Positions 46,768-62,712 of a stretch of DNA of 64,000 bases are shown here, piece after piece; within the stretch, counting starts at the first letter, position 1, and each line of letters opens with the position of its first letter. This DNA comes from an uncultured Eubacteriales bacterium (GTDB lineage Bacteria; Bacillota; Clostridia; Oscillospirales; Oscillospiraceae). The notes beneath the pieces are model-generated. The model worked only from the letters and a program-made list of their open reading frames with translations, was not told where the DNA came from and ran no database searches. Made by a program: the position numbers and the translations under genes. The stretch is taken from positions 31,214 through 95,213 of the forward strand of contig UQWI01000011.1 in assembly GCA_900544765.1 (NCBI GenBank), in the 5' to 3' direction.

Positions 46768-46790
46768 CCTCGGGACACTTTGTCTCGAAG
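46768..46790. repeat. GGGACA-N3-TGTCCC palindrome, copy 1
   Basis: CGGGACA-CTT-TGTCTCG with flanking C and AAG, between the 88-aa gene and the recombinase promoter. One of 11 copies in the element. Confidence 0.8.
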
Positions 46791-46812
46791 CTGGGGCTGG
46801 CCGCAGCCAAAG

Positions 46813-47079
46813 TCACAGCCCGCTTTTTTGCCGGATCAAATAGTCCGTCAAGGTGTCCTGCAAAGACGGCCCGCCTTCCGCAAATTCAATTTTCACACCG
46901 ACTCCGCCGATGTTGAAGCAGTACAGATTTTTGGCAACTTGCAAAAACCTTGTGACGCGCTCTTTGCGGGAAAGGGCGTTATCAAAGGTCATACCGCTCA
47001 CATCGGGCAGAGACTCAGGGGAAACTGCGCCAATGTCAACGCTTTTCATTTGTTCCAGTTCCTGTGCGGTTAATCTCAC
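46813..47079 (-). CDS. small accessory protein of the conjugative element (DUF6870-like)
   Basis: 88-aa protein that begins at a GTG (47079) with AAAGGAGG 7 nt upstream; a longer frame from 47193 starts inside a repeat and is not supported. Sequence features: MRLTAQELEQMKSVDIGAV, RKERVTRFLQVAKNLYCFNI, VKIEFAEGGPSLQDTLTDYL. It resembles a short conserved protein often encoded beside serine recombinases in these elements; I recall it as DUF6870 without certainty. Function unknown. Confidence 0.75.
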   Translation of the reverse strand: MRLTAQELEQMKSVDIGAVSPESLPDVSGMTFDNALSRKERVTRFLQVAKNLYCFNIGGVGVKIEFAEGGPSLQDTLTDYLIRQKSGL

Positions 47080-47183
47080 GGTAAAACCTCCTTTGTTCAG
47101 ATTGATAAACGCCTCCCGGTTGTCCTGTGGGGAAACGCGAAAAGGCGGCACCGCACAAGTGCCGCCCTTTAGCCTGTCCTCAC

Positions 47184-47205
47184 ATCGGGACACTTTGTCT
47201 CGAAG
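47184..47205. repeat. GGGACA-N3-TGTCCC palindrome, copy 2
   Basis: CGGGACA-CTT-TGTCTCG followed by AAG, exactly abutting the stop codon of the 66-aa gene that ends at 47206. Confidence 0.8.
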
Positions 47206-47406
47206 TTAATAGGAGCCGTTTTCGTAATGGTGCTGGGCCTCGTCCAGCGTTTTGAAATCAAATACATAATGGAGCTCACCGACAACGCGCCGGATGTCCT
47301 CGGGGGAAAAACCACAGTTTTCCATCGCATAGATCACATATCCCCGGCAGGCGTTGTTGCTCCACGGCTCGGCCAGCATAGCGGCCAATGTAGGATCGAA
47401 CTTCAT
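47206..47406 (-). CDS. small conserved element protein of unknown function
   Basis: 66-aa protein starting at 47406 with AAAGGGGG upstream. It is acidic and helical looking (LAEPWSNNACRGYVIYAMENCGFSPEDIRRVVGELHYVF). It lies between the 88-aa gene and an apparently non-coding stretch. I do not recognise a named family. Confidence 0.65.
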   Translation of the reverse strand: MKFDPTLAAMLAEPWSNNACRGYVIYAMENCGFSPEDIRRVVGELHYVFDFKTLDEAQHHYENGSY

Positions 47407-47410
47407 TTTT

Positions 47411-47605
47411 TCATTCCCCCTTTGATAAAAATTTAGGGAACGCCTCGCCCATTTCCTTGACCTGTCCAAAGACAACTGTACTCGGCGCGGCGCTCCCTCG
47501 CAGACGAGAGGGCGGCCCGGAGGGACAGGCGGCCAGCCTGTCCACTGCCGGATCGTGGCCGTAGGTTGGCCGGGCCCACTTGCGGCGCTGGTGTTGTTCG
47601 CTCAT
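47411..47605 (-). CDS. possible small protein
   Basis: A 64-aa open frame starting MSEQHQRRKWARPTYGHDP with AAAGGA only 3 nt before its ATG. It occupies much of the 335-nt gap between the sigma-like gene and the 66-aa gene. Composition (Arg, Pro, Ser) is not convincing, and it may be chance. Confidence 0.25.
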   Translation of the reverse strand: MSEQHQRRKWARPTYGHDPAVDRLAACPSGPPSRLRGSAAPSTVVFGQVKEMGEAFPKFLSKGE

Positions 47606-47741
47606 TTTCCTTTGGGAAAAGTCACCGCGCACCCGCCGCCTGGCTCCCCGGATCATGCTCGGGGCCGCCCTTGTTCATCTACGGAGAAAAGAAAACCTCC
47701 TCTCATAAACCGAGACATTTTTGGATGATATTCGGACTGGT

Positions 47742-48164
47742 TCAGCGTGATTTTTTCAAATATTTTTTCATGTTCTCCAAACCGCGCTCCACAGCCCGCC
47801 GCACCGCGCTTTCGTGAACGCCTTCCGCTTCAGCTACTTCAGAATAGGTCTTGCCAAGAATGACACAGGCATCCACACGGCGGCCCTGGGCTTCGGGCAG
47901 AGAGTTAAGCGCGTTCCACAGACGGATAAAGAGTTCCATGCGTTCCAAGAGCTCCTGGGGCGTGGGCTCATGCAGGCAGGCCGAGTATTCGATCCCGTCC
48001 TCGCAGTCCAGGGAATACTGTGCCTTGTGCCGGGAGAGCCGCCGCTGATAAGCCATCTCATGGCGGGTATCAGCCAAAAACACTTCGGCCACCTCGTTAG
48101 AAACCTCGATAAACTGATCCTGCGTGTACCAATAATAAAAATCTTTCAGATTGATTGTAGTCAT
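47742..48164 (-). CDS. sigma-70 region 4-like protein
   Basis: 140-aa protein. The C-terminal third is a sigma region 4-type HTH (RVDACVILGKTYSEVAEAEGVHESAVRRAVERGLENMKKYL); the N-terminal part (DQFIEVSNEVAEVFLADTRHEMAYQRRLSRHK) is typical of short sigma-like factors of conjugative elements. GGAGG precedes the ATG. Likely controls transfer or excision genes. Confidence 0.88.
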   Translation of the reverse strand: MTTINLKDFYYWYTQDQFIEVSNEVAEVFLADTRHEMAYQRRLSRHKAQYSLDCEDGIEYSACLHEPTPQELLERMELFIRLWNALNSLPEAQGRRVDACVILGKTYSEVAEAEGVHESAVRRAVERGLENMKKYLKKSR

Positions 48165-48722
48165 AATAAACCTCCGCTTCGGTGTTGGGTGGATGAGTGA
48201 CCGAAACGGAGCTCGGCGGGGAGCGGCACCCTGGGGAGCTGCTCCGTACCTCGGGACATTTTGTCTCGAAGTATGGATAACAAAATGCGCCTGCGCGACA
48301 CAAAGCCACGCAAGCGCATGAAATTACATATTCGTTTATGTACTGCCAAATTTCGCATCCATTGCCAGACTGATCCTGCTGGGTAGGTGGGCTTTTTTTG
48401 ACAGGTTAGGGGGATGGGAAAAGAACAAGGACACGGCGGTACCTCCTGGACACCGCCGTATCCTAAAAAATGGGCGACTTTAATACACCCCCCGCAATCT
48501 CATTTTTTGAAAAGAAAACGGCGGCTTGAAATTGTTATTTCAAAACCGCCGCAAGGCTACTGTATTTTGTTTTGGCGCGTGATGACCCAGCCGCCGAAAC
48601 AACGGTTTTTTTTATTACCGCTGTTCGACAGTGTTGGTGAAATAAAATAGCCTATTACATAAAATTTAATTACATTCTCATAATCTAACCCGAAATGTAC
48701 AATGATATAGGGTGATATGAGA
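48165..48722. other. regulatory intergenic region with palindrome and hairpins
   Basis: About 560 nt with no convincing gene. It holds palindrome copy 3 (48249-48271), a hairpin ACGGCGGT / ACCGCCGT at 48433-48459, a longer imperfect stem-loop at 48519-48551 (CGGCGG-CTTGAAAT / ATTTCAAAA-CCGCCG), and weak promoter elements for the downstream regulator (TACAAT at 48698-48703). Confidence 0.55.
48249..48271. repeat. GGGACA-N3-TGTCCC palindrome, copy 3
   Basis: CGGGACA-TTT-TGTCTCG flanked by CCT and AAG, about 85 nt upstream of the sigma-like gene. Confidence 0.8.
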
Positions 48723-49082
48723 ATGAACCAAGATGAACGAAGATTTGACTTTCATGGGCTCGGTCTAGCACTGAAACAGGCCAGAGAGGAAAAGGGATGG
48801 ACGCAAGCCTATGTAGCGGAGCTGGTCGGCAAGACAGACCGCACCATTATGAACATCGAGAACAAAGGCCAGCACCCCAGCTTCAACCTGTTTTTTAAGC
48901 TCGTCACACTGTTCGATATATCCGTAGACCAGTTTTTCTATACGGAGGGCAACCGTGGCGGAAACAGTTGCCGGAAACACATTGATGTACTTTTAGACTC
49001 CATGAACGAAAAAGAGCTTGTTGTCATGGAGGCCACAGCCGAAGGGCTCAAGAAAGCCAGAGAAACGGAGGTTCTAAAATAG
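48723..49082 (+). CDS. XRE-family HTH regulator
   Basis: About 119-aa protein with an N-terminal Cro/CI-type HTH (LGLALKQAREEKGWTQAYVAELVGKTDRTIMNIENKGQHPSFNLFFKLVTLF). ATG at 48723 has AGGGTGAT upstream; an ATG at 48717 is also possible. It is one of few + strand genes in the element. A candidate for the protein that binds the GGGACA/TGTCCC sites, but only by position and family. Confidence 0.9.
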   Translation: MNQDERRFDFHGLGLALKQAREEKGWTQAYVAELVGKTDRTIMNIENKGQHPSFNLFFKLVTLFDISVDQFFYTEGNRGGNSCRKHIDVLLDSMNEKELVVMEATAEGLKKARETEVLK

Positions 49083-49100
49083 GAATCTCCGTTTCTTTCT
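49062..49100 (+). terminator. terminator of the XRE gene
   Basis: GAAACGGAG / CTCCGTTTC stem spanning the stop codon of the regulator, followed by TTTCT. Confidence 0.75.
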
Positions 49101-49126
49101 GCTTTCAGAGAATGAGCAAAATTATA

Positions 49127-50164
49127 TTAGCAGACAGCATTTTCAAGTATGGTAAGTTTTTTCTGCTCGCAATCTATCTCCGCCATCACTCCATAAGGTA
49201 AAATACAAACAGGCGATGTATGACTGCAATTTACATTATATAAAATAGGCAAGTCTGGCCGCTTAGCTTCATTTCCTATAACTTGAATATAAATATTTTT
49301 ATATTCGTCATAATATCTTTCATCCATTGGTTTTCCGATGATTATTCCATTTATTTTATCTATAATGCCTTGTGCCACAAGATTTCTTAAGAAGTAGCAG
49401 ACCTCTTCCGGCTTAGGATAATCCTCTCCTGTTTCAAGGAACAGGAGTTTATTTTCCCATTCGTCAAGGGCGGGCCATATTTCTGTTCCTATAACCATTT
49501 TAAGTACGCCCAAACATCCACCAAGAAGTTTTCCTTTAACTCGACCTGTCCCTTGTAATATTTCATAGCCGTGTTTTTCGGGCTTCATTTTCCTCGCAAT
49601 CTTTTGGTTTTGAGGATCTGCCCAGTCTAAAAATTCAGAAGTCCACATATTGCATGAACTTATTTCCATTTCTGAAGCACAAGAGAATAGCATTTGTTTA
49701 ATGCAGTCAATGGTATATTGGTGCATCTGCTTGTTTTCTGCAAATTCGACCATGAGACAAGGCCCGTGGAAAGAAACTACCCCGGCTTTATAAAGCATCA
49801 AATGATTAACGGTTGTGTCAGAATAACCCATGAATATTTTTGGATTATCTCTGATAATTTGGTAATCAATGTAGGGAAGCAGGCGAATAGTATCATCTCC
49901 GCCAATCATACAAATAATCGCTTTAATGGTCGTGTCTTTGAACGCTTGCATTAAATCCTGTGCCCTTAATTCGGGATGATTATATAAGTATTCATTCCCT
50001 TTTAGAGCATTGGGCATTGTGATAACATGAAGCCCGAATACAGTTTCTAATCTGTTAATACCTGTATAATATCTATGGATAAGAGACTTTTCCCCACCCA
50101 TACCAGAAGATAGCGACACAATAGCAACGGTGTCTCCTCTCTTTAATGCTTTTGGTTTTATCAT
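49127..50164 (-). CDS. S66-family LD-carboxypeptidase (MccF-like)
   Basis: 345-aa serine peptidase of family S66. Nucleophile Ser in KIFMGYSDTTVNHLML, the upstream IGGDDTIRLLPYID, Glu in LLFLETGED and His in NVNCSHTSP form the Ser-Glu-His set. The family includes MccF, which cleaves aminoacyl-nucleotide antibiotics of the microcin C type, and LdcA, which trims peptidoglycan peptides. The ATG at 50164 has AAAGGGGT upstream. The gene is AT-rich compared with the element backbone and divergent from a Crp/Fnr regulator, so it is cargo. Confidence 0.88.
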   Translation of the reverse strand: MIKPKALKRGDTVAIVSLSSGMGGEKSLIHRYYTGINRLETVFGLHVITMPNALKGNEYLYNHPELRAQDLMQAFKDTTIKAIICMIGGDDTIRLLPYIDYQIIRDNPKIFMGYSDTTVNHLMLYKAGVVSFHGPCLMVEFAENKQMHQYTIDCIKQMLFSCASEMEISSCNMWTSEFLDWADPQNQKIARKMKPEKHGYEILQGTGRVKGKLLGGCLGVLKMVIGTEIWPALDEWENKLLFLETGEDYPKPEEVCYFLRNLVAQGIIDKINGIIIGKPMDERYYDEYKNIYIQVIGNEAKRPDLPILYNVNCSHTSPVCILPYGVMAEIDCEQKKLTILENAVC

Positions 50165-50181
50165 AGTATTACCCCTTTGTC

Positions 50182-50211
50182 TTGACAAAATTATACTTCA
50201 ATTCGTATATT
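50182..50211 (+). promoter_or_regulatory. promoter of the Crp/Fnr-type gene
   Basis: TTGACA (50182-50187), 18 bp, TATATT (50206-50211), about 39 nt before the gene, in the 85-nt region shared with the divergent peptidase gene. Confidence 0.6.
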
Positions 50212-50249
50212 AAAGTAAGGTCAAGTGACCCATTTTGGAGGAAATGTTT

Positions 50250-50888
50250 ATGGATGCTGAAATACTTCGTGGCCGTATGCCGATTACAATTCGCAAAAAG
50301 CTAATGAAAAAAATTTATGATCCCGGAAATCTTATTATTATAGCAGGTTACGAAAATAAATATGTATTTTTCTTAATTGAGGGAGAAGCAGAAGCCTCTA
50401 TCCAAAATAATGATGGCACTGTCGCTACTGTCTACTTATATAAATCGAATAGCATATTTGGTGAAGTAGAGCCATTTTATAATGACTTCAAACCTGTAAG
50501 CATAACCGCAACTAAAAAGTGTATTGTAGAGGCACTTCATCAGACCGATTTTTTAGAATGGTTGAAAAGTGATTTTGAAGCCACAAAACTGCTTATTCGT
50601 ATAATATCAGAGAAGCTAATACACAATGGTCAACTTATAGAGGAAATGTCTTTGCTGTCTGTTCGTAAAAGAGTTTTACGATGTATAGCTATTTACAATC
50701 ACAAAGGACAGCTACACAAACTAACGAAAAAGCAACTTTCAATCGAAGCAAATACACCTATTAGGAGCGTAAATCGAGCGATTGCAGAATGTGTAAAAAT
50801 GGGTTTAATCTCTTATGAGAATAAACAAATTTACATAAAAAATCTCGCTGTCGTTATGGAACACTTACCTTCTATATTACACTTTTAG
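50250..50888 (+). CDS. Crp/Fnr-family regulator
   Basis: 212-aa regulator. Cyclic-nucleotide-binding-like beta-barrel at about 15-115 (FFLIEGEAEASIQNNDG, YKSNSIFGEVEPFY), dimer helix, and a Crp-type HTH at about 160-200 (LTKKQLSIEANTPIRSVNRAIAECVKMGLI). No N-terminal Cys cluster is seen, so it is not an oxygen-sensing FNR. TGGAGG sets the ATG at 50250. AT-rich and divergent from the S66 peptidase, which it probably controls. Confidence 0.88.
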   Translation: MDAEILRGRMPITIRKKLMKKIYDPGNLIIIAGYENKYVFFLIEGEAEASIQNNDGTVATVYLYKSNSIFGEVEPFYNDFKPVSITATKKCIVEALHQTDFLEWLKSDFEATKLLIRIISEKLIHNGQLIEEMSLLSVRKRVLRCIAIYNHKGQLHKLTKKQLSIEANTPIRSVNRAIAECVKMGLISYENKQIYIKNLAVVMEHLPSILHF

Positions 50889-51053
50889 TAAATAAATTGA
50901 ATGGAGGGAGCGTTAAAATCGTGACCTCCGTTTTTCGCGCCATTTTCGGGGCTTGCACAAAACGGCAAGCAATTCGGGTGTGGCCACACTCCGAAATTTT
51001 TGCAGGCCGCAGGCCCGCAAAAATGCTTGTTGGGGAGCTCCCCAAACCCGCTG

Positions 51054-51080
51054 GACTTCGGGACAAATTGTCCCAAAGTC
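51054..51080. repeat. GGGACA-N3-TGTCCC palindrome, copy 4
   Basis: 27-bp near-palindrome GACTTC-GGGACA-AAT-TGTCCC-AAAGTC, 33 nt beyond the relaxase stop. The surrounding gap (50889-51112) otherwise holds a GGAGG/CCTCC hairpin after the regulator gene. Confidence 0.85.
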
Positions 51081-51112
51081 CCGGCGCAAGCGCCTGTTGG
51101 ATGCGGCCCGGG

Positions 51113-52519
51113 CTAACGCTCCTGGGCCTTATTTTCCCGCCCGTCCGTATGGCCGAGCAGATAATCAATGTTTGCCTTGACCGCAACGGCCTGCCGCATA
51201 TCCGCCTGGGCTTTGCGGTACTCGGCATAGAGGGCCTTTTTCTTTTCGGAGAGTTCCCGGCGCTCCTTTTTCAGCGTGTCCATTTTCGGGAGCTTCGCCC
51301 CGCCTAAAAGATCATTCATGGCAGCTTTCGCCGCCCGGTATGCGGCCAGCTCCGCTTCATGCTGGGCCAGATATTTTCTGCTATACCGGGCCGCCTTATA
51401 GCCATCGAATACAGGCCGAGTTTTTGCAAAATCAACCGTAGCGCCCATGAGCTGTACTGTATGGGAGAGGGCTGCTTCGGTTTCCCGAAGTTTCCCAGCC
51501 AGGGCGTGAAAGCGATCCACCGCCGCCTCGGTACTGGCCGCCAGTTTCTCATAGTCTGTGAGCTTGTGCTCCTGGAGATATTGGAGCGCGGCGGCCATCT
51601 GTTTGAGGTTGTAAACTTTGGCCCACCGCGCATAGGCCGGGCCTATGCCCTGTGCCATACGCTCTTGAATATCAATAATCAGATTGACACGCCGGGCCGG
51701 AGCCGGGCCGTCTTTCGGGATCTCCGGGATCGGACGCTCCCCGGCAATCACCGCCCGGATGTCATCGGGATCAAAGCCTGGGCCCAGGACAGAAGCCCGC
51801 AGACGGGTGTATTTATCCTGCCCAGGAGCCAGGAATGAGATCACGCCGCCCCGCCCATGCTTCACCGCAAAGCCGGACTCCTCCATAAGCCGCAGGAACG
51901 CTGGGAAGTCGGCGGGCTTTTTCCCCAGGGCCTCCACGATGGCCAGCCGCACCCGTTGTTGTGCGGCGGGCGGCTTTTCCCCGATCCACTGGCCATAGTG
52001 GAGAAAACGGCCTTTGCTGTGCTGTTTTGGATTTTGAATGACCGACAGCTCATGCTCGATGCACACCCGGTCAGAGAGTCGCCGCACCGCAAAGCTGGAG
52101 CCGATGAAGTTATGAAACTTCCGGGAGCAATCCTGGGCCGTGGAGTTGTAATAAATGTGATTATGAATGTGCCCTTTGTCGATGTGGGTACAGACGAAAA
52201 ACTGGTACTTGCCCTTTGTCCAGCGCATGGCTGTTTCATAGCCGATTTTGTTTGCCTCCTCCGGCGTAACCTCACCGGGAGGAAACGCCTGCCGGATCTG
52301 AAAAAACAGAGCCCCGCGCTCCACGGCCCGGCCCGTTTCTGCCTGGTACTGGCTTTTGGTCAGAAGAAACTCAGCCGGGGCCAATGCCGGATCGCAGAGG
52401 TAGGCAGACACAGCTCCTATCTTTTTCGGATTGAGCCCGTAGGCAAACCGATCCTCCATCGTCTGGACAGCAGTTTTTCCTGCCGCTACCTTGTAGGGCC
52501 GGATATAGGTTGTAGCGAT
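51113..52519 (-). CDS. relaxase / mobilization nuclease (VirD2-like), apparent ATC start
   Basis: 468-aa relaxase if it starts at 52519. Motif I Tyr in GAVSAYLCDP near residue 40; metal-binding His motif HIDKGHIHNHIYYNS at about 112; long helical C-terminus. AAAGGAGG lies 7 nt before an ATC codon at 52519, and the frame then reads ATTYIRPYKVAAGKT, the N-terminus usual for this family; the first ATG in frame (52459) has no ribosome site. It nicks the element's origin and leads the strand into the recipient. MobC is encoded nearby. Confidence 0.88.
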   Translation of the reverse strand: MATTYIRPYKVAAGKTAVQTMEDRFAYGLNPKKIGAVSAYLCDPALAPAEFLLTKSQYQAETGRAVERGALFFQIRQAFPPGEVTPEEANKIGYETAMRWTKGKYQFFVCTHIDKGHIHNHIYYNSTAQDCSRKFHNFIGSSFAVRRLSDRVCIEHELSVIQNPKQHSKGRFLHYGQWIGEKPPAAQQRVRLAIVEALGKKPADFPAFLRLMEESGFAVKHGRGGVISFLAPGQDKYTRLRASVLGPGFDPDDIRAVIAGERPIPEIPKDGPAPARRVNLIIDIQERMAQGIGPAYARWAKVYNLKQMAAALQYLQEHKLTDYEKLAASTEAAVDRFHALAGKLRETEAALSHTVQLMGATVDFAKTRPVFDGYKAARYSRKYLAQHEAELAAYRAAKAAMNDLLGGAKLPKMDTLKKERRELSEKKKALYAEYRKAQADMRQAVAVKANIDYLLGHTDGRENKAQER

Positions 52520-52573
52520 AGCCGCGCCTCCTTTCTGAAAAAAGACGGCGGCTGTGCTCCCGCCGCCGCAAAG

Positions 52574-52599
52574 GACTTCGGGACAAATTGTCCCAAAGC
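52574..52599. repeat. GGGACA-N3-TGTCCC palindrome, copy 5
   Basis: GACTTC-GGGACA-AAT-TGTCCC-AAAGC, one nucleotide after the stop of the small membrane protein and upstream of the relaxase. Confidence 0.85.
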
Positions 52600-52600
52600 G

Positions 52601-52894
52601 TCATCCCGCAATAAAGGTCTTTAATGAATAGTTGAGATCATCCAGCCTGCAGACCAGCCACTCGGCTGCGGCGGGCAGCCCGAAAGGAGAAAGCAGAAAA
52701 GCAAGCACCAGCCCGGTGATCCCCCATTGTGGATTGCTCTGGATGAACAGCTCGAACAGACCGCACACTGCAAGGATAAAGGACAGGATGCCAAGCACCC
52801 AGGACGCAAGGGAAACGCTGAAATTGAGGACTGCGACAATCAGCGTAAGAGCCAGCACAGCAGGAGCCGCGATGATTTTCAGAATGATCCGCAT
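52601..52894 (-). CDS. small membrane protein, CD1845-like
   Basis: 97-aa protein with three hydrophobic segments (about 5-30, 32-52, 58-78). The start IILKIIAAPAVLALTLIVAVLN-type segment is that of the CD1845 family of conjugative elements. AAGGAGG precedes the ATG. It is transcribed from the promoter at 52942-52970, ahead of the relaxase. Confidence 0.8.
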   Translation of the reverse strand: MRIILKIIAAPAVLALTLIVAVLNFSVSLASWVLGILSFILAVCGLFELFIQSNPQWGITGLVLAFLLSPFGLPAAAEWLVCRLDDLNYSLKTFIAG

Positions 52895-52941
52895 AGCTTG
52901 ATACCTCCTTGTTTTTGTTGATGGTTTACCTCTATATGACT

Positions 52942-52970
52942 ATTATACCTCTGTCCAGGAGGGACAACAA
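52942..52970 (-). promoter_or_regulatory. promoter of the mobilization genes, twin of the recombinase promoter
   Basis: On the - strand: TTGTTG (52970-52965), 17 bp, TATAAT (52947-52942), with an almost perfect everted palindrome TGTCCC-TCC-TGGACA in the spacer (52952-52966). The region upstream also repeats CATCCTTGTTGTCCCT as at the recombinase promoter. Confidence 0.8.
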
Positions 52971-52991
52971 GGATGCCTCCGGCTTTCAGCA

Positions 52992-53014
52992 CCTCGGGAC
53001 AAAGTGTCCCGAAG
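52992..53014. repeat. GGGACA-N3-TGTCCC palindrome, copy 6
   Basis: CTCGGGACA-AAG-TGTCCCGAAG, the most symmetrical copy, 22 nt upstream of the mobilization promoter's -35. Confidence 0.85.
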
Positions 53015-53083
53015 TATATCCCATCGTAAAAATGTACAATTTGTGCTATTCTATATTTATGCTGAAAAGAAAGGGTTGGTTTT

Positions 53084-53989
53084 ATGAGAATGGGTGAAGG
53101 TAGAGAAACCTTCAATAGGCTTCTAAATTGGGATAGAGGACAAGCTCCTTCGGAGCGTTTAGCCGCTATCATATTATCCAAAGAGGGCTTTATGGGAATT
53201 GACCCCTCACATCCGTTAGGTGGTAAAGACGGACTAAAAGATATGACTCTATCCTTCGAAGGAAAACGGTGGATTGGAGCTGTATATTTTCCGCGCGGCC
53301 AGCAATCATTTACGGTTATAAAGGACAAATTTATTCACGACCTAGATGGCGTAAAAGCCAATGGTGCAAAGGGCCTAGTTTTTGTAACAAATCAAGAATT
53401 ACGCCTTAATGAAAGAAAAATTTTATCTGAGCTGGCCCCTAATATTGATATTCAAATATATCATTTGGAAAGAATTGCATCTTTATTGAATACACCTTCT
53501 TTCTACGGAATCAGAATGGAATTTCTGGATATTGAAATGAGCAAAGAAGAACAATTATCTTTTTTTGCCGATAAAGAACAACGCCTTATAAGAATGGAAA
53601 ACATTTTAGAGCGAATGGTTAGTGGTCTGGATGAATACAAGGCATTAGACGAATCTGTTTCGACAAAATTAGAGACTGATGACGATGAGCCTGAAGAATA
53701 TACGATTGAACCGCGCACGATGGACGAAGTAGCAGAAGCGGCGTATCAGTTCGTAGAAAAAATTTGGTTTGATCGCCATCTATCGTTAAAATATAAGGTT
53801 GAAAAGGGTATAGAAACTGTCGATCCTCAAATTTGGGAAGGTGCATTAAAGTCTGCTGAAAAAATGATACAGAAATATGGAGAGGAAAACCTCGGGCCTT
53901 ATAGTGATTTTGAATGGGGAATGTTAAATGGAAAACTATCGGCACTTAGGTGGGTATTAGGCGAAGATTGGGATATGCTTGATACATAA
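53084..53989 (+). CDS. predicted nuclease-like cargo protein (PD-(D/E)XK-like N-terminal domain)
   Basis: 301-aa protein in AT-rich DNA unlike the backbone. N-terminal about 130 residues: ETFNRLLNWDRGQAPSERL, AAIILSKEGF, LGGKDGLKDMTL, KRWIGAVYFPRGQQSF, KGLVFVTNQELRLNE; this order resembles the core of restriction-endonuclease-like folds (acidic residue after GGxDG, then a strand), although the usual ExK is replaced by the VYFPR strand. The C-terminal half is acidic and helical. AAAGGG lies 8 nt upstream. It is an isolated + strand insert with its own terminator; a defence role is possible but not shown. Confidence 0.6.
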   Translation: MRMGEGRETFNRLLNWDRGQAPSERLAAIILSKEGFMGIDPSHPLGGKDGLKDMTLSFEGKRWIGAVYFPRGQQSFTVIKDKFIHDLDGVKANGAKGLVFVTNQELRLNERKILSELAPNIDIQIYHLERIASLLNTPSFYGIRMEFLDIEMSKEEQLSFFADKEQRLIRMENILERMVSGLDEYKALDESVSTKLETDDDEPEEYTIEPRTMDEVAEAAYQFVEKIWFDRHLSLKYKVEKGIETVDPQIWEGALKSAEKMIQKYGEENLGPYSDFEWGMLNGKLSALRWVLGEDWDMLDT

Positions 53990-53993
53990 AAAT

Positions 53994-54035
53994 AACGCGG
54001 GGAAATATGGACATATACCCCTTTCCCCGCGTTTT
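53994..54035. terminator. bidirectional terminator
   Basis: A perfect 12-bp stem (AACGCGGGGAAA / TTTCCCCGCGTT) with a 16-nt loop between the convergent cargo gene and mobC. Confidence 0.88.
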
Positions 54036-54036
54036 G

Positions 54037-55169: not shown

Positions 55170-55196
55170 AATAACACCTCCTTAGATGCCCCGCCA

Positions 55197-55219
55197 CCTC
55201 TGGACAAAGTGTCCAGAAG
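55197..55219. repeat. GGGACA-N3-TGTCCC palindrome, copy 7 (variant)
   Basis: CTCTGGACA-AAG-TGTCCAGAAG. A compensated change (GGGACA to TGGACA, matched in the other arm) keeps perfect pairing, which suggests the hairpin or dyad itself is conserved. It lies between two genes. Confidence 0.8.
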
Positions 55220-55702: not shown

Positions 55703-55706
55703 GCCG

Positions 55707-55883
55707 TCACCTCCCGCCAGCCGGGGCCCGCATGAGCTCCCGGTAGCAGGACACACAGCCGATGCCCCGCCAGTAGGGGCACCCGGAGCACCGGGAGCCC
55801 CTGGGCGGTTTCGCCGGGGCAGGAGCCTGGGGACGGGGCTTCTGCTTCATCATTTTTTCAAAGGGGCTGTCGGTAAACCTCAT
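55707..55883 (-). CDS. 58-aa Cys-rich small protein
   Basis: Pro-rich N-terminal half, then C-x2-C (CSGC) at 32-35 and C-x2-C (CVSC) at 43-46, a probable zinc site. Its ATG overlaps the stop of the DUF4366 gene (ATGA) and its stop is 4 nt before the TTG of the Cys-rich VLP gene, so it is tightly coupled on both sides. Function unknown. Confidence 0.75.
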   Translation of the reverse strand: MRFTDSPFEKMMKQKPRPQAPAPAKPPRGSRCSGCPYWRGIGCVSCYRELMRAPAGGR

Positions 55884-56671
55884 TTGTCAGCCTCCTCTCC
55901 GTCATCGTCCTCCTCGTCCCAGGGCGGGCCGTCATCGTCCTCGTCCCCGTAGGGTTCCCCGCCGTCATAGCCATCCAGCTCCCCGCCGTAGTCCTCCTCG
56001 GGTTCGGCGGCTTTTTCATGTTTCGGGCGATAAATCTTAAAGTACCAGCCAGCCCCGCCGCCGATCACCGCCACGGCCAGCACCAGCAGAAGCATCCCCA
56101 TATTGCCGCCCGTTTCCGGCTCGGCCTCCTCCGGGGCGGGTTCCCCGGTTTCCTCCGTTTCCACTGGTTCCGGCTCCACGCCCGCGCACTCGGTCATATT
56201 GACAGCGCAGACCGGGCAATCCGTATTGACAGCCCCCGCCGCGCATTTTTCAGAGCAGGAGCAGGCGGCCTGTTCCACCCCGGCAGCCTCCGCCGCAGCC
56301 AGCAGATCGGCTTCGTCCGTCATGCTCAAAAAGTAGGTTTCATACTGCTCGCCTTCCTCGTCCACGGGCTTGTCATAGTCAATGACAATGTAAAAGGTGT
56401 TCCCGCCCGCCGTCTGCACCGTGATAAACTGCTTGTTGGTGTGCTCGTCATAGAGCAGATCACGGGTAACAAGGTTGCCCTCCTCCGAGAAGCCCTCGCC
56501 CGGTTCAATGGTGGGCTCCGGCTCCGGGGCCGTGGTTTCCTCGGTCATGGTGGGATCTCCATAGTTTTCGCCCTCACCGCCGTCTGCATAGGCAAAGGCT
56601 GGGACAGCCGAAAAGCCGCATAAAAGAACGGCGGCACAGAGCGCCGCCGTCAGAGACTTCCATCGTTTCAT
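55880..56671 (-). CDS. DUF4366 surface protein (CD1107-like)
   Basis: 263-aa protein: signal peptide MKRWKSLTAALCAAVLLCGF..AFA, an acidic/Pro linker, the DUF4366 domain at about 60-175 (TRDLLYDEHTNKQFITVQTAGGNTFYIVIDYDKP, LSMTDEADLL, Cys group), one membrane segment at about 190-215, and a very acidic Asp/Glu/Gly cytoplasmic tail. Start at 56671 (ATG) with AGGAGGAG upstream. A cell-envelope part of the transfer apparatus. Confidence 0.88.
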   Translation of the reverse strand: MKRWKSLTAALCAAVLLCGFSAVPAFAYADGGEGENYGDPTMTEETTAPEPEPTIEPGEGFSEEGNLVTRDLLYDEHTNKQFITVQTAGGNTFYIVIDYDKPVDEEGEQYETYFLSMTDEADLLAAAEAAGVEQAACSCSEKCAAGAVNTDCPVCAVNMTECAGVEPEPVETEETGEPAPEEAEPETGGNMGMLLLVLAVAVIGGGAGWYFKIYRPKHEKAAEPEEDYGGELDGYDGGEPYGDEDDDGPPWDEEDDDGEEADK

Positions 56672-56673
56672 AT

Positions 56674-56928
56674 TCAATTCTCCTCCTTCCTGCCGGGTTC
56701 AGACTTCGGGACACTTTGTCCCAAAGCCCCATCGCCCTTCAGCTTTTCAAACAGGAGCGGGAGCTCCGCAAGGGGGATGCTCATGCCCCGCACGATGTCC
56801 ACGATCTCGCTGTTTTCCGCCTCCAGCTTTTTCTGCTCCAGTTCTTTCAGTCGGGCCTGTTGTTCACTGATTTTAGCCTTGACCTTATCAATCTCGGCCT
56901 GGATTTTCATGCTTTTTGCCGTTGCCAT
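56674..56928 (-). CDS. DUF4315 coiled-coil protein
   Basis: 84-aa protein. An N-terminal coiled coil (MKIQAEIDKVKAKISEQQARL) is followed by IVDIVRGMSIPLAELPLLFEKLKG, the DUF4315 pattern. The last 16 residues (LGQSVPKSEPGRKEEN) are encoded by palindrome copy 8 and what follows, so this tail seems repeat-derived. It lies between the NlpC/P60 and DUF4366 genes. Confidence 0.85.
   Translation of the reverse strand: MATAKSMKIQAEIDKVKAKISEQQARLKELEQKKLEAENSEIVDIVRGMSIPLAELPLLFEKLKGDGALGQSVPKSEPGRKEEN
56702..56727. repeat. GGGACA-N3-TGTCCC palindrome, copy 8
   Basis: GACTTC-GGGACA-CTT-TGTCCC-AAAGC, inside the 3' end of the DUF4315 gene, translated as LGQSVPKS. Confidence 0.85.
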
Positions 56929-56941
56929 AGATAACCTCCAA

Positions 56942-58648
56942 TCATGGTAAACGCCCGTAGGCGTAGAAATGAGATTGCCAGTAGCTTGTATTTAGGTTTG
57001 CGTAACCGATGGGATCTCCACAGTGCAACATTTTATTGTCACCCACATAAATCCCACAATGGCTCACCCCCGGCGTGTCATAAGTACCCTTGAAAAAGAC
57101 CAGATCGCCGGGTTGCGGATTGCTGGTCGGCGTACAGATGTTATAAAGCCCCTGGGCCCCCAGGCGGCCCACATTCCAGCCGGAGTGATTGATTACCCAG
57201 GACACATAGCCCGAGCAGTCAAAGGATGTGGCCGGACTGGAGCCACCCCACACATAGGGATAGCCGATATATTTCTCGGCCTCGGAGAGAATGGCGGCAA
57301 AGGTTTCGTCATCCAGATACTCCCGGGGCACCTCGTATCCTTCGGGCGGTTCGGTGTACTTGCCGACATACTCGGAGCCGGGGAACAAATCCGGGCGGTT
57401 TCCCAGCGTTGCCATATAGATGGCATATCGGGACATCTGATCCTCGCTTAACAGGTAGACGGGCAGATGGGACAGGTTTTTGTTTTCCAGCGTCACATAG
57501 CAGATATAGTAATTGTAGGGAACCTCCACCTCGTAATCGTTGCCCTCGCTGTCGGTGCGGGTTTCCGTCCGGTAGCGTACCTCCACCACCACATCCTCGG
57601 TCAGAATGTACTGGCTGTCAAAGAGCGTTTGCAGAGAGCCCTCCACCTGGTCAAGCGTCCACTGTCCTTCATGGAGCGAACACAAAAGGGAAAGAAGTAC
57701 ATAGGGATCATGCTCGATCTCGTCCAGGTCAAAGTGGTACTCGTCATAGTCGTGGGTGCTTTCGTAGCTGTCCAGATAGCCGGATAGCTCCGCCTCCAAG
57801 TCACAGTAAGCGGCTTCGGCCCCCAGCAGATCCCCGTCCTCGCAAGGGTAGGTGCTGGCCCCCACCGCGCCGATGGTGCTGTTTCCCAGCGTAACAAGGG
57901 AAGAAGAACAGGACTGCATCACCAATACAAGCAGAACGCAGGCCAGAGCCAGCAGACAGCCCACGGGATGGCGTTTCACAAAACCAACCGCCAGGGCCGC
58001 CAGCTTTTCTGTGGTAACAGCCGTTTTCCCGGCGGCCTGGGCCCCGTATTTGGCCGCCTCCTTTGCCTGCTTCTGATACCTCTTGCGGAGCCGCCGCTTC
58101 TGCCAAAACCGGGACAAAGCGTTTTTGGAGAGCTCCGGGTGCTCCTGTGCGGCGGTGTGAAAATGGTAATCTGCCGTAGCCTTGATATATTTGGACTCGG
58201 CCTTACGAACCGCCTTTGCCGGGTGCTCCCGGATTTTCCGTTTCACAAACCGGGAGCCATGCCGCAGGGCAGACTCGCCCACAAGCTCAGAGCGGTGGGC
58301 CCCTTCGATGCCCACATTCTCATGCTCGTTTTCGTAAATCTTCCCATGCACAAAGCTGTGGGCGGAGCCGCTGGCCACCCGGCCCACACGCCTCACCGGG
58401 CCCGGCTTTTTGGGCGGCTTCTGTTTTGCCAGCTTTTCCTTTGCCCGATCCAGCTTTTCCCCGCGCTTTTCCATGCGGAGTTTGGATGCCGCCGCTTTCT
58501 CCTGGTTGCTTTTCTGCCGGAATTTTGACTTTGGGACACTTTGTCCCGAAGTACCCCCGGCGTTTCCTTCGCCAGCCCCGCCCGGATCGGCGGCCCCAGC
58601 CGCCTCCCTGGGTTCGGGGCCCGCGCCGTTATTCGGTTTTCGCTTCAT
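56942..58648 (-). CDS. NlpC/P60 cell-wall hydrolase of the transfer apparatus (CD1108-like)
   Basis: 568-aa protein. A basic N-terminal cytoplasmic part (about 1-220), a membrane segment near 227-250 (VGCLLALACVLLVLVM), an extracellular middle, then an NlpC/P60 peptidase at about 455-568 with catalytic Cys478 (SFDCSGYVSW) and His530 (GVSHCGIYVG). It opens peptidoglycan for the mating channel. Residues about 32-40 (GQSVPKSKF) come from palindrome copy 9. It overlaps the virB4 gene by 20 nt. Confidence 0.92.
   Translation of the reverse strand: MKRKPNNGAGPEPREAAGAADPGGAGEGNAGGTSGQSVPKSKFRQKSNQEKAAASKLRMEKRGEKLDRAKEKLAKQKPPKKPGPVRRVGRVASGSAHSFVHGKIYENEHENVGIEGAHRSELVGESALRHGSRFVKRKIREHPAKAVRKAESKYIKATADYHFHTAAQEHPELSKNALSRFWQKRRLRKRYQKQAKEAAKYGAQAAGKTAVTTEKLAALAVGFVKRHPVGCLLALACVLLVLVMQSCSSSLVTLGNSTIGAVGASTYPCEDGDLLGAEAAYCDLEAELSGYLDSYESTHDYDEYHFDLDEIEHDPYVLLSLLCSLHEGQWTLDQVEGSLQTLFDSQYILTEDVVVEVRYRTETRTDSEGNDYEVEVPYNYYICYVTLENKNLSHLPVYLLSEDQMSRYAIYMATLGNRPDLFPGSEYVGKYTEPPEGYEVPREYLDDETFAAILSEAEKYIGYPYVWGGSSPATSFDCSGYVSWVINHSGWNVGRLGAQGLYNICTPTSNPQPGDLVFFKGTYDTPGVSHCGIYVGDNKMLHCGDPIGYANLNTSYWQSHFYAYGRLP
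58527..58554. repeat. GGGACA-N3-TGTCCC palindrome, copy 9
   Basis: GACTTT-GGGACA-CTT-TGTCCC-GAAGTAC, inside the 5' part of the NlpC/P60 gene, translated as SGQSVPKS. Confidence 0.85.
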
Positions 58649-60992
58649 TTTTCACATCCTCCGGGCGGGTGGTCAGCAGGTTATAGATCTCGCCTTTCGG
58701 GAACCGATCCACAAAGGGGATGGTCACATTCCCATAGAACAGCAGGCCCTCGCCGGAATTGGAGTGGGTGATGTAGGAAAGCTGATGCTCGGAAATGCCG
58801 AGCTGTTTTGCCAAAATCGTCCGGTCACTTTGGGCCTGGGACAGCAGGATCATAAAATCCGTGTTGTCGAGAATGTTCTCAATCTCCCGGCTGGCCAAAA
58901 GGTCTTTCACATTCTGCGTAAGTGCGCTGGGGACACATCCTTTTTTTCGGAGCATCTTCCAGACCGCAACAAAATAGCTGGCGGTCAGAGGATCGCGGAG
59001 CAGGACATGGAACTCGTCAAAGTAGCACCAGGTCGCCACGCCCTCCCGAAAGTTGGTGTCCACCGCCTGGGAGACAAACTCGTTTGTGATGTGCATGGCA
59101 ATCTTGCGGAGGTTTTCTCCCATGTTCTTGAGCACGATGCACACCACCCGGCTGTCCGTTTTTACATTGGTGGGATGGTTAAAGAGATTGAGAGAGCCCG
59201 TACAGTAGAGCTCCAGGGCCGTTGCTACCCGGCGGGCCTCCGGCTCCGGCTGTTTGAGAAGCTCCTCGTACAAGTCCTGCAACAGCGGCGTTTTTTCAGT
59301 GGCAATCCCCAGGGCCTGCTCCCGGTAGACCAGCCGCACACAGCGGTCAACCACCGTTTTTTCGATGGGCTGTAAGCCGTCCTTGCCGCCTACCACCAGC
59401 TCGCACAGGGAAAGCAGGAAATCCGCCTTCATGGAGAGCGGGCTTTCCCCGGCGGTCATGTTAAGCTCCACATCCATCGGGTTTAAGTGGTGGGGGCTGT
59501 CCGGGGCAATCTCGATCACCTGGCCGCCCAGCCTGCGAACCAGCGGGGCATATTCCCCCATCGGATCAACAATCAAAATCCGATCCTGGGGGATGGCAAG
59601 GAACACATTTAAGAGCTCCCTTTTTGCGGCGAAAGATTTTCCCGAGCCGGTAGAGCCGAGATACAGCCCGTTGGCCGACTTCAGCTTTTTGCGGTCAGCC
59701 ATGATGACATTGTGGGAAAGGGCGTTCATGCCGTAGTAGAGGGCCTGTCCAGCCATCCGCAGCTCTCTTGTCATAAAGGGAATAAAAATCGCCGTGGAGC
59801 TGGTCGTCATGCCGCGCTGGATCTCCACCTCGTTATAGCCGAGAGCCAGCGAGGACACAAAGCCCTGTTCCTGTTGCCAGTCAAGACGCTTTAAGGAGCA
59901 GTTGTATTTCTGCGCGATGCCGCCCACAGTAAACACATCGTTTTCCAGCCGCTGGCGGGTGGGGGCAAAGTTTACCACCGTAAAAGTGAGCAGGAACATC
60001 CTCTCGTTGCGGGACTGGAGGTCAGCCAGAAGCTCCGCCGCGTCCTTGCTGAATGTGATAAGGTCGGGTGGCAGGATGTCGGGATCATACCCGGCCCGCA
60101 CCGCCTTACGCTGTTCCTCCACCTTCATTTTTCCGATGTCAGAGATTTTGCCCTTGATGGTCTTAATGGCCTTTAACTGATCCACCGTCTGAATATGGAG
60201 CGTGACCGTCATTTCCGCATCCATCTCTAAAATCTCCGCAAGGAGCTTGTCAGAGAGTTCGGACGCTAAAATCTGCAAGTAGGACACCGCGCCCCAATAC
60301 TGGCCGATCCGAAATGAGCGGGACTGCCGAAAGTCGAAGCTGTCCGGGGCAATAAAGTCCTTTGTGCCGAGCCCGGTCTGCGGAATGTCCTTCCACGAAA
60401 AGCGGAACGGCTCCCGGTTTCCCGGGTGCATCTGGCTATAAAGCAAGGCCAGCCTTGCCCGCCCGTCCATCGGCTCACAGGGAACACCCAGCCGCTTGAA
60501 GTTTCCCATCACATCGGCCTCCACGCGCTCCAGGCGGGGGCGGGCCTCCGCGATCCCTTCGGCGGGTATGCCGAAAGTGATGTATTTGGAGCGTTCAATG
60601 CCGTTGTTGCTTTTGGCGATCTGATTTTTCAGCATCCCGGTAAATTCCTCCCGGACGCTGTTAAAATCATCATCCGCCTGGGGAATGTTTACCTTGTAGC
60701 GGCTCCTGGAATGGGAACGGCGGTTGATAAAAGAAAGCTGGAACGGCAGAGTGCTGTCAAAGTAGTTGAGGAATGAGCTCCAGCCGCCGAAAATCGCCGT
60801 CTGATCCTCGGTACTTGCCACGGAATAATTGATGTCCTCATATTCCACGGTCTTTGTATAGAGCCCGCCGGGGAGCTTGCACACCCCGTCCGGGTGCATT
60901 GCCAGATAGGGGATCGTCTGCTGGACGGACAAGGCCGCCCGGCTGTTACCCCTTCCGGGACTGTTTTTGCTTTTTGCCTTTCGCAATCGCAT
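58629..60992 (-). CDS. VirB4/TraE-like conjugation ATPase
   Basis: 787-aa type IV secretion ATPase. Walker A GSTGSGKSFAAKRE with Lys452, Walker B-like RILIVDPMGEYAPL, later motif TWCYFDEFHVLL and LTQNVKDLLASREIE. It powers DNA transfer. AGGAGG abuts the ATG at 60992; a TTG two codons on (60986) is at better spacing. The start overlaps the PrgI-family gene. Confidence 0.93.
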   Translation of the reverse strand: MRLRKAKSKNSPGRGNSRAALSVQQTIPYLAMHPDGVCKLPGGLYTKTVEYEDINYSVASTEDQTAIFGGWSSFLNYFDSTLPFQLSFINRRSHSRSRYKVNIPQADDDFNSVREEFTGMLKNQIAKSNNGIERSKYITFGIPAEGIAEARPRLERVEADVMGNFKRLGVPCEPMDGRARLALLYSQMHPGNREPFRFSWKDIPQTGLGTKDFIAPDSFDFRQSRSFRIGQYWGAVSYLQILASELSDKLLAEILEMDAEMTVTLHIQTVDQLKAIKTIKGKISDIGKMKVEEQRKAVRAGYDPDILPPDLITFSKDAAELLADLQSRNERMFLLTFTVVNFAPTRQRLENDVFTVGGIAQKYNCSLKRLDWQQEQGFVSSLALGYNEVEIQRGMTTSSTAIFIPFMTRELRMAGQALYYGMNALSHNVIMADRKKLKSANGLYLGSTGSGKSFAAKRELLNVFLAIPQDRILIVDPMGEYAPLVRRLGGQVIEIAPDSPHHLNPMDVELNMTAGESPLSMKADFLLSLCELVVGGKDGLQPIEKTVVDRCVRLVYREQALGIATEKTPLLQDLYEELLKQPEPEARRVATALELYCTGSLNLFNHPTNVKTDSRVVCIVLKNMGENLRKIAMHITNEFVSQAVDTNFREGVATWCYFDEFHVLLRDPLTASYFVAVWKMLRKKGCVPSALTQNVKDLLASREIENILDNTDFMILLSQAQSDRTILAKQLGISEHQLSYITHSNSGEGLLFYGNVTIPFVDRFPKGEIYNLLTTRPEDVKNEAKTE

Positions 60993-61335
60993 CCTCCTTT
61001 CTCACAGCGCCCCGCCCGGTAAACGGAGCGTAAATGTTTTCTGTCTGATAGTGCCGAACCCCGGGCCGCAGGAATTTGGCCCGGATGATGTTATGAACCA
61101 CTTTTTCAAAGGGGAGCCCGTCTTTTTCATACATCGCCAGCAGGAACGCCGGGAGCATGACCGCCAGCATAAGGAACATGGCCCCGGTATTCCCCAGGGG
61201 CTCCCGCGCCAGCAGGTAGGACGGGATGCCGATGGCCGCCGCCCCGCCAAAACAGATGAGCTGGCGCTTTGTCAGATTGAACGCCATTTTCGTTTTGATT
61301 TTGGATAAGTCATTCGGGACATTTACATAGGGCAT
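60946..61335 (-). CDS. PrgI-family membrane protein
   Basis: 129-aa protein: MPYVNVPNDLSKIKTKMAFNLTKRQLICF, two hydrophobic segments (about 30-48 and 52-72), then VVHNIIRAKFLRPGVRHYQTENIY and a basic tail. PrgI proteins sit next to VirB4 in Gram-positive transfer systems. The ATG at 61335 has AAAGGAGG; a longer frame from 61653 shadows the methyltransferase gene. Confidence 0.9.
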   Translation of the reverse strand: MPYVNVPNDLSKIKTKMAFNLTKRQLICFGGAAAIGIPSYLLAREPLGNTGAMFLMLAVMLPAFLLAMYEKDGLPFEKVVHNIIRAKFLRPGVRHYQTENIYAPFTGRGAVRKEDAIAKGKKQKQSRKG

Positions 61336-61915
61336 GAGAAACCTCCTTTCTCGCCCCGGAGACTTCGGGACAATTTGTCCCAAAGTCCGGGACGGTGCTT
61401 TCCACCTCGTTTCCCCACACATCCCAGCCGGGCGGCGTCTGTCTTGCGAACAGCTCCACCCGGGGCAGATCGCCCATAAGGGCAACAATCTTTTCCCGGG
61501 CCTCGTCCGGCTTTTTGCTGTGGGCTTCAATGGGGGAAATGATAAACTGGTGGATATTGGCCGCCTGCCGCTTCGGATGCCCTTTTGTTGCCAGCAGGCA
61601 GATCTCCGCATTTCCCCGCGTCCAAAAGCCCAGGCCGTAAAACCAGCTATCAACTTTCCGGTTTTTCTTCAGCCAGACGAAAGCCACGGACTTATACTGA
61701 AAGCCCCACGCCTTAATCAGTCGCAGGGCCTCGGGGAGCTGGGGGAAAGTCGCCCACAAAAAAAGCGCGCTGTCCGGGGCGGCCAGATCCGCCACCGGGA
61801 GCGCACATAACTCGTCAATCCCCATTGTGGGATAATGGTGCTCCGCCGCCCCTTGCAGGCCCTTTTGGGCGTACCGCCACGGGGGATCGGCGTAAATGAT
61901 AGAATATCGTCCGAT
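61310..61915 (-). CDS. MT-A70-type adenine methyltransferase, apparent ATC start
   Basis: 201-aa N6-adenine methyltransferase. The catalytic DPPW is at residues 10-13 (YSIIYADPPWRYA), then SALFLWATFPQLPEAL, FWTRGNAEICLLATKG, RVELFARQTPPGWDVWGNEVE. The first ATG in frame (61825) would cut off DPPW, so translation must start upstream; AAAGGAG lies 7 nt before an ATC at 61915, 2 nt after the stop of the preceding methyltransferase. The last about 25 residues (DFGTNCPEVSG...) come from palindrome copy 10. It overlaps prgI by 26 nt. Confidence 0.87.
   Translation of the reverse strand: MGRYSIIYADPPWRYAQKGLQGAAEHHYPTMGIDELCALPVADLAAPDSALFLWATFPQLPEALRLIKAWGFQYKSVAFVWLKKNRKVDSWFYGLGFWTRGNAEICLLATKGHPKRQAANIHQFIISPIEAHSKKPDEAREKIVALMGDLPRVELFARQTPPGWDVWGNEVESTVPDFGTNCPEVSGARKEVSHALCKCPE
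61361..61387. repeat. GGGACA-N3-TGTCCC palindrome, copy 10
   Basis: GACTTC-GGGACA-ATT-TGTCCC-AAAGTC, inside the 3' end of the MT-A70 gene (translated as FGTNCPEV) and 26 nt upstream of prgI. Confidence 0.85.
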
Positions 61916-61917
61916 AG

Positions 61918-62712
61918 TTACACTCCTTTCTCCCCGGCCTCCACCGCCGAGCGTGCCACGCGGATGCGCTCACTGGCGGCGGCGTAAAAGGCTGGAGCTG
62001 TTTCAAAGCAGACGAAGCGGCGTCCCGCATTGAGGGCGGCAACGGCGGTTGTGCCGGAGCCCGCGCAGATGTCGGCCACCAGCTCGCCGGGCCGGGTGTA
62101 GGTCTTGATGAAATACTCGCATAGTTCCACGGGCTTTTGCGTGGGATGGATGCCGCCTGTTACGGTGGGGACAAACAGCACATTTCCCGGATAGCGCCGC
62201 CCATCGCTGGACTCGGAGCTCTGCCGCTCGAATTTTCCATAGTTCGGGCTGGTGCCGCTGCGGGCATGGACACGGCTGTACGGCTTGCCGTAAGTAAACT
62301 GCGGATTGTAAAGCGGGGCTTTTTGATAGAACACCAAAATATTCTCCGACTTTTTCAGCGGGGCCCGGTTTGCATTGAGAAATCCTGTCCCGCGCTCCTT
62401 GTACCAGATCCACTCATAGCGGAGCATGGAGAGGTTGGAGGCCCCCAGCACCTTGTCATAGGGGCATTGAGCAAAGAACAGCACCGCGCCCTCCGGCTTG
62501 ACCGCCCATTTCACTGCCTCCCATAATTCCGGGAGCGGCAATGGCACATCCCAAAAGTTGCGGGTAGTGCCGTAAGGCGGATCGGTTAAGAGCATATCCA
62601 CCGAATGACGGGGAAGGGAGCGCAGGCCCTCGATGCCGTCCATCAGAAACAGCCCCTCCGGGCAGTCCGGGGACTTCGGGACACTTTGTCCCAAAGCCGC
62701 CTTATCGGTCAT
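61918..62712 (-). CDS. site-specific DNA methyltransferase (N4/N6, DPPY first)
   Basis: 264-aa methyltransferase. DPPY at 44-47 (LLTDPPYGTTRNFW) comes before the AdoMet motif I region (ELVADICAGSGTTAVAAL) near residue 225, the beta-class order; HPTQKPVELCEYFIKTY is typical. The ATG at 62712 has AAGGAGG. Residues 8-14 (GQSVPKS) are encoded by palindrome copy 11. No cognate endonuclease is adjacent, so it is probably an orphan that protects the element on entry. Confidence 0.9.
   Translation of the reverse strand: MTDKAALGQSVPKSPDCPEGLFLMDGIEGLRSLPRHSVDMLLTDPPYGTTRNFWDVPLPLPELWEAVKWAVKPEGAVLFFAQCPYDKVLGASNLSMLRYEWIWYKERGTGFLNANRAPLKKSENILVFYQKAPLYNPQFTYGKPYSRVHARSGTSPNYGKFERQSSESSDGRRYPGNVLFVPTVTGGIHPTQKPVELCEYFIKTYTRPGELVADICAGSGTTAVAALNAGRRFVCFETAPAFYAAASERIRVARSAVEAGEKGV
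62672..62698. repeat. GGGACA-N3-TGTCCC palindrome, copy 11
   Basis: GACTTC-GGGACA-CTT-TGTCCC-AAAGCC, inside the first 15 codons of the DNA methyltransferase gene. Confidence 0.85.

Follow-up and report, generated by a model that had tools for sequence, protein, structure and literature searches.

What recognizes the eleven short palindromes that punctuate one end of a 64,000-nucleotide stretch of DNA from an uncultured Eubacteriales bacterium (contig UQWI01000011.1, positions 31,214 to 95,213; hereafter the window), and what do they do for the integrative and conjugative element (ICE) in which they lie? The initial annotation of the window described a GGGACA-N3-TGTCCC dyad repeated along the conjugative element and offered element-wide operators, RNA hairpins or partition-type sites as explanations. 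On the basis of comparisons with related elements, the palindromes are probably the cognate loading sites of a long, ParA-less, KorB-like ParB clamp encoded by the element, which most likely silences it. That the ParB protein is the recognizer of the sites is almost certain from these comparisons, while silencing as its main function stands at about even chances against partition, roadblock or coat formation by the same protein.

All eleven palindromes are present as described, inside the element and at gene junctions or gene ends, with seven exact GGGACA-N3-TGTCCC copies, three one-mismatch GGGACA-N3-TGTCTC copies and one with a symmetric double change. The reported absence of the motif from the chromosome to the left also holds, since the 46 kb left of position 46,772 contain no match with one mismatch or fewer. 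A relaxed 21-base pattern finds one isolated chromosomal match, at 15791-15811, with the dyad TTGCGGACAGCCTGTCCGAAG. The confinement can be followed across whole genomes: in Clostridium cadaveris, 14 of the 17 matches to a degenerate pattern fall inside the chromosomal element and the reversed control pattern gives 0. In Gemmiger sp. An50 (3.6 Mb, at most one mismatch), 15 of 29 sites are in its related element (C12:192,385-213,215), one is on the same contig at 229,445, four are on contig C33 and nine are scattered, and the reversed control gives 12 matches.

Arrays of this kind recur at matching junctions in sister elements of many gut Clostridia. The sister set comprises 80 VirB4-related loci (L001-L080), 32 of which contain a ParB core, and most of the 80 carry several GGGACA dyads, with an extended consensus across sister elements of a 21-23 bp dyad, CTT-Y-GGGACA-N3-TGTCCC-R-AAG. 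The examined loci that have no GGGACA dyads have TGGACA or GGGCCA dyads instead, often at matching places, or TGG(T/C)CA in the case of L058. There are thus four half-site versions (GGGACA, TGGACA, GGGCCA and TGG(C/T)CA), with one version throughout each element: in 68 loci that have four or more sites, the majority type of the locus accounts for 1066 of 1074 half-sites. Of 67 loci, 62 have a site before VirB4, in each case of the locus's own class, and 63 have one directly after VirB4, again without exception in class; at two further junctions a site is found in 49 of 66 loci (48 fully of their own class) and in 57 of 65 (all of their own class). Anaerotignum lactatifermentans has two elements of different, nearly uniform class in one genome. 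Where almost all sites of an element carry the same paired change, a trans-acting reader with altered specificity is indicated.

This switching bears on two readings that dispense with a dedicated reader. Selfish palindromic repeats that spread by insertion are known from the Rickettsia palindromic elements, and some copies in the window are indeed read in frame at protein ends (as GQSVPKS and FGTNCPEV), but elements that differ in class have their sites at conserved positions, with the sequence changed in matched fashion, and copies are concentrated in the element, which together make such a repeat highly improbable here. The proposal that the dyads are intercistronic RNA hairpins tuning expression fares equally poorly, although they lie in presumably transcribed junctions and terminator-like matches are in excess across the element. 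An RNA function sits badly with the absence of strand preference, the asymmetric sites being split 138 versus 136 between the two orientations, and with the concerted switching of an element's sites, which follows a protein residue. Moreover, of the 57 terminator-like matches at window 45000-64000, compared with 26.3 in shuffled sequence, only one (47175-47192) overlaps a site.

The protein in question is a long member of the ParB family. In C. cadaveris the element begins with a 510-residue ParB_N protein and ends with a serine recombinase, with 14 sites and with genes mostly in one direction, and Gemmiger sp. An50 has a homologous ParB protein of 486 residues, which supplies the residue numbering used here. 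The assignment is made by the ParB_N domain (PF02195, E 1.6e-14) and by TIGR00180 (2.5e-18), both above cut-off, and there is a KorB profile match at 1.5e-8; the solved Spo0J structure 1vz0 aligns through the helix-turn-helix (HTH) that follows the N-domain. A structure model, better in the N-domain and HTH than elsewhere and with long disordered parts, has a mean predicted local distance difference test (pLDDT) score of 61, and its Foldseek matches are to ParB, Noc and KorB, with E down to 4.3e-10 and low TM-scores. The model places helices at 326-340 and 345-357, putting residue 332 in the first HTH helix and residue 345 at the start of the second. In the nucleotide-motif region GHRR is invariant or nearly so in sets of 18 and 23 sequences, His taking the place of the Glu of GERR.

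Aligning the ParB proteins reveals class-specific residues in the HTH. The correspondence was counted over 281 columns of the ParB core. The 77 rows (52 of them different) include repeats of the same element and the short homologues L201 and L230, and leave out ParB loci with no site in their stretch, with less than 45% identity to the An50 core (except L230) or with an aligned core span below about 200 residues. Further ParB loci came from genome draws, with a match in 2 of 391 genomes class-wide and in 13 of 396, 27 of 400 and 21 of 397 in family draws, some already known; with at most four candidates scored per genome, these counts are lower bounds. Column 332 goes with base 1 of the half-site (R with G in 50 rows, L with T in 26, H with T in one) and column 345 with base 4 (Y with A in 49 rows, V with C or T in 25, G with A in three), and among the 281 columns only 332 predicts base 1 without error and only 345 predicts base 4. 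All four combinations of the two bases are found, TGGACA occurring with two different residues at 345. Loci L008 and L014 branch with the TGGACA clade, yet have R332 and GGGACA sites. From its residues (KLS with MSVK) L179 was expected to have TGGCCA; the exact palindrome was not found, and a relaxed scan gave two such sites and one GGGACA site, while L058/L165, with the same residues, have TGGTCA/TGGCCA sites. Column 345 aligns with the R of GKAR in Spo0J 1vz0 (alignment confidence there being about 0.7), which by motif is R173 of Caulobacter ParB, the residue that contacts base 1 of parS and is Q in Noc (PMC7383237).

Several observations weigh against the ParB reading. The window contains no ParB gene, and its presence rests on the An50 element, which is 96% identical over 8.7 kb. 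Two ParB loci with stretches of at least 10 kb (L176 and L177) have no strict site near the gene, L177 sharing a contig with L046, the sites of which start about 30 kb further along, and 4 of 40 stretches examined later contain no site (L340, L343, L355 and L362). The element has no more promoter-like matches than chance would give (13 versus 13.3), so the sites are not demonstrably at promoters; an association with promoters, tried as a candidate, was dropped for the lack of any such excess. In a tree for which the HTH was left out, base 1 and base 4 each change only three times; the residues change with them in every pair compared, but with so few events the phylogeny-aware sign tests (p 0.25 and 0.5) cannot reach significance. 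Finally, there is linkage within L001-L080: the columns that track class, for base 1 and base 4 respectively, number 25 and 49 of 410 in ParB, 5 and 53 of 608 in VirD4, 2 and 7 of 774 in VirB4, 1 and 62 of 230 in ArdA and 0 and 88 of 446 in the relaxase, the tracking of base 4 resting on few V-class rows.

The few changes in the tree and the linkage between columns called for a test on new data, and predictions for 56 further ParB loci were recorded before their sites were viewed; stretches were examined for 40 of these. In all 34 testable stretches the sites were as predicted, with 305 of 314 half-sites in agreement and none in the reversed control. Six of these stretches (L348 to L351, L353 and L360) duplicate DNA from the earlier sets; with these left out, all 28 remaining loci agree, in 214 of 222 half-sites. 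In 16 of the 28 the ParB core is less than 95% identical to any used before (the lowest being 78%), and all 16 were correct. The new proteins belong to known clades, so the rule is tested within clades more than across new ones. Two of the 40 stretches have residue states outside the code. L328 (ParB locus L283) has K332 and G345 and TTG-TGGACA-N3-TGTCCA-CAA at six sites, three of them read out in full, and its TTG/CAA flank indicates that a base outside the core can change too; in the other (L329), A345 goes with a single mixed site, GGGTCA/GGGACA.

Recognition by another protein of the element (XRE, MobC or sigma-like) or of the host is by comparison very improbable. The XRE protein (48717..49082, plus strand), which the initial annotation put forward, is encoded in 39 of 77 sister loci, but it does not track site class, 0 of its 116 columns doing so for base 1 or base 4, and the An50 element has sites without a close XRE homologue, the best match in An50 (24.5%) lying outside the element. 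For MobC 0 and 2 of 113 columns track the two bases, and for the sigma-like protein 0 of 134 track base 1, while 46 of 134 track base 4, but on two V-class rows of 21. A host recognizer is hard to reconcile with the Anaerotignum genome that holds two elements of different class.

How the ParB protein would act is suggested by KorB of plasmid RK2, a ParB-type clamp reported to repress from an OB site 1.5 kb away (PMC11790492). The claimed spacing of roughly one site per 1.5 kb is borne out by the sister loci, with a median of 1520 bp, as is the placement at gene junctions and ends: only 32 of 551 sites in 77 sister loci lie in gene interiors (at least 40 codons inside a conserved gene body), compared with 51% expected, and these exceptions comprise 24 in the CD1108 protein and eight in ParB. 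It is this placement and spacing, taken with the KorB clamp that represses from 1.5 kb, that favor element-wide silencing. The comparisons establish the site array with its concentration in the element and its class switching, as well as the match of residues to bases and the success of that match on new elements; physical binding, clamp loading, sliding and silencing are steps that we infer. ParB would be encoded near the end of the ICE opposite the recombinase, and its dimer would read each half-site by the HTH, with residue 332 matched to base 1 and residue 345 to base 4. By homology to KorB it would load at the sites and slide as a cytidine triphosphate (CTP)-dependent clamp, such that clamps from some 14 sites could cover the roughly 25-kb element and keep the transfer genes silent while the element is integrated.

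Two other roles for the same protein have to be weighed against silencing. In a roadblock, bound sites would halt transcription between genes, as do the stoperators of Cluster A mycobacteriophages, and the largely unidirectional gene array with sites at its junctions would suit this, as would the precedent of co-varying repressors and site sets in those phages (PMC6550527). Stoperators are asymmetric and mostly one-way, however, while the sites here are near-symmetric and the asymmetric subset is without directional bias; the junction bias, moreover, is expected anyway and need not be regulatory, because inserts inside genes would be harmful and selected against. We regard a roadblock as improbable, and only slightly more credit goes to a distributed centromere, in which the same ParB would segregate the excised circular form by borrowing a host or plasmid ParA. 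Membership of the ParB family and the many sites per element are in keeping with the latter, but no classical ParA Walker motif was found in loci L001-L080 or in 16 ParB stretches (a divergent ATPase would be missed by this search), as against 35 of 49 loci around short ParB homologues that have one. A dyad with at least three copies is present at 2 of 46 short-ParB loci (L185-L230; only L218 and L230) versus 4 of 14 long-ParB loci (L172-L184 and L231) in the same scan, a weak contrast, the long-ParB figure being low because much of those stretches lies outside the element. The suggestions of operators and of partition-type sites in the initial annotation were thus both near the mark, because the inferred recognizer belongs to the ParB/KorB family, with partition proper doubtful given that no classical ParA motif was found. 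The short homologues, considered as further users of repeated dyads, were set aside, as only L218 and L230 among the 46 loci have them. At L230 (G017:C95, about 7538-14783) a 34%-identical ParB has a ParA-type motif upstream and five exact TGGACA-N3-TGTCCA dyads (six when relaxed), and the locus is an intermediate between a partition pair and an array. The comparison suggests that mobile elements hold two kinds of ParB, the short kind usually having a ParA motif close by and the long kind lacking ParA and accompanied by site arrays.

The closest known system is KorB/OB of RK2, which shares with the long ParB the profile and fold match and several operators spread over a conjugative element; KorB is reported to be a ParB-family CTPase clamp with palindromic operators and a disordered N-terminal region (PMC11790492), features that the present system would share. 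In contrast, KorB works with IncC, a ParA, and with KorA, which locks the clamp, whereas here a ParA was not found; the site differs, the hosts are Clostridia, and this family has several site classes. ParB-parS and Noc-NBS likewise combine ParB_N and HTH with a palindromic site and have a specificity residue at the same alignment position (R/Q173 versus 345), though here no ParA motif was found beside ParB, some 14 sites run through one mobile element, and the four specificity residues listed in the available part of the ParB/Noc study (PMC7383237) do not include 332. BisD of ICEclc is also a ParB-domain regulator of an ICE, but together with BisC it serves to activate, within a parA-shi-bisDC neighborhood, and an element-wide dyad array is not mentioned in the portion of that paper at hand (PMC7423338). 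Cluster A stoperators are similar in having many sites per genome, with site sets tracking the regulator; theirs are asymmetric and directional, as the sites here are not, and a relation to ParB is not mentioned in the available text (PMC6550527). Tn1549-type ICEs share a CD1110-family VirB4, a CD1108 protein and a similar gene order, the VirB4 of the window element being about 50% identical to that of pMG2200, but two 34-kb stretches of this type lack a match to the ParB core, and none of their dyads occurs more than twice. A literature search that covered few subscription papers returned no paper whose title or opening lines of abstract describe such an array of sites or the ParB protein.

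It is quite plausible, though short of probable, that gut ICEs of one family carry, from end to end, loading sites for their own ParA-less ParB clamp, with recognition diversified in a two-position code, as a self-silencer or protective coat. If so, site spacing near the reported working distance of KorB would let clamps cover the entire element, and a group of gut conjugative elements would have a master DNA-binding protein whose addresses are known. The four half-site types, two residues and dozens of elements with both sites and proteins would amount to a natural experiment in specificity change in the ParB family. Class-based exclusion or immunity between elements was also considered and discarded: where one genome encodes two or more of these ParB proteins, 12 of the 19 pairs are of unlike class, compared with 11.7 expected by shuffling, so class shows no sign of governing co-residence.

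Within the window, similarity to the An50 element starts near 44,980, taken as the left end of the element, and a gene at this edge (43906-45051) seems to be cut near its 3' end. The large serine recombinase (45017..46696, minus strand) is the last gene of the element, as it is in C. cadaveris, and VirB4 of the CD1110 family (58629..60992, minus strand) served as the query for finding sister elements. In An50 the ParB gene is about 7 kb upstream of VirB4, from which the window's own ParB gene would be placed beyond position 64,000; the genes upstream of ParB differ from locus to locus in 16 loci compared by eye, which argues that ParB is at or near the element's edge. Besides the 8.7 kb at 96%, the window and An50 elements are 94% and 81% identical over shorter stretches, with about 47.1-51.0, 53.0-54.0 and 54.6-55.2 kb of the window unshared. 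Cargo-like genes, identified by eye as LD-carboxypeptidase-like, Crp/Fnr-like and a further plus-strand open reading frame (ORF), occupy 49127-50888 and 53084-53989, which do not align to the An50 element. Two proteins of the window carry Tn1549-type marks above cut-off, the CD1110 VirB4 (NF045971, 9.5e-297) and the CD1108 protein (NF045974, 9.7e-75), while CD1112, CD1107, DUF4315 and MT-A70 have no NCBIfam match among the window proteins, these names being taken from gene order only.

The three one-mismatch copies, none of the eleven being assigned a strand, are those nearest the recombinase: site 1 (46768..46790) between the recombinase start and ORF 46813-47193, site 2 (47183..47205) at the 5' end of that ORF and site 3 (48249..48271) upstream of the sigma-like gene (47742-48164). 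In An50 one-mismatch sites (TGTCTC or GAGACA in one arm) lie at both ends of the element, and several sister loci again have one-mismatch matches, perhaps of the same variant, towards ParB; such sites at element ends may be weaker ones. Exact dyads follow directly 3' of the relaxase gene (site 4, 51056..51078), between the relaxase start and ORF 52601-52894 (site 5, 52576..52598) and upstream of this ORF (site 6, 52992..53014). Site 7 (55197..55219) is TGGACA-N3-TGTCCA, which bears out the paired change with symmetry kept in both arms and places the other half-site class inside a GGGACA element; locus L008, also a GGGACA element, has one TGGACA-class site as well. Because copy 7 adjoins a stretch unshared with An50, at whose edge it lies, recombination between classes is the simplest reading of its origin. 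The remaining four are exact: site 8 (56704..56726) in the final codons of a gene assigned to the DUF4315 type by its position, where it is read as GQSVPKS; site 9 (58529..58551) at about codons 33-40 of the CD1108/NlpC gene 56942-58648; site 10 (61363..61385) close to where ORF 61310-61825 has its 3' end, with the reading FGTNCPEV; and site 11 (62674..62696) at about codons 22-29 of the methylase-like gene 61918-62760.

Seven viral contigs (L084, L095, L096, L099, L100, L103 and L112) have 3-5 copies of TTTGGGACA-N3-TGTCCCAAA within a few kb. The ICE proteins have no match in the examined stretches of these contigs, and this is possibly an unrelated array with the same core. In L084 and L112 the copies adjoin a terminase-like ORF, as judged by eye.

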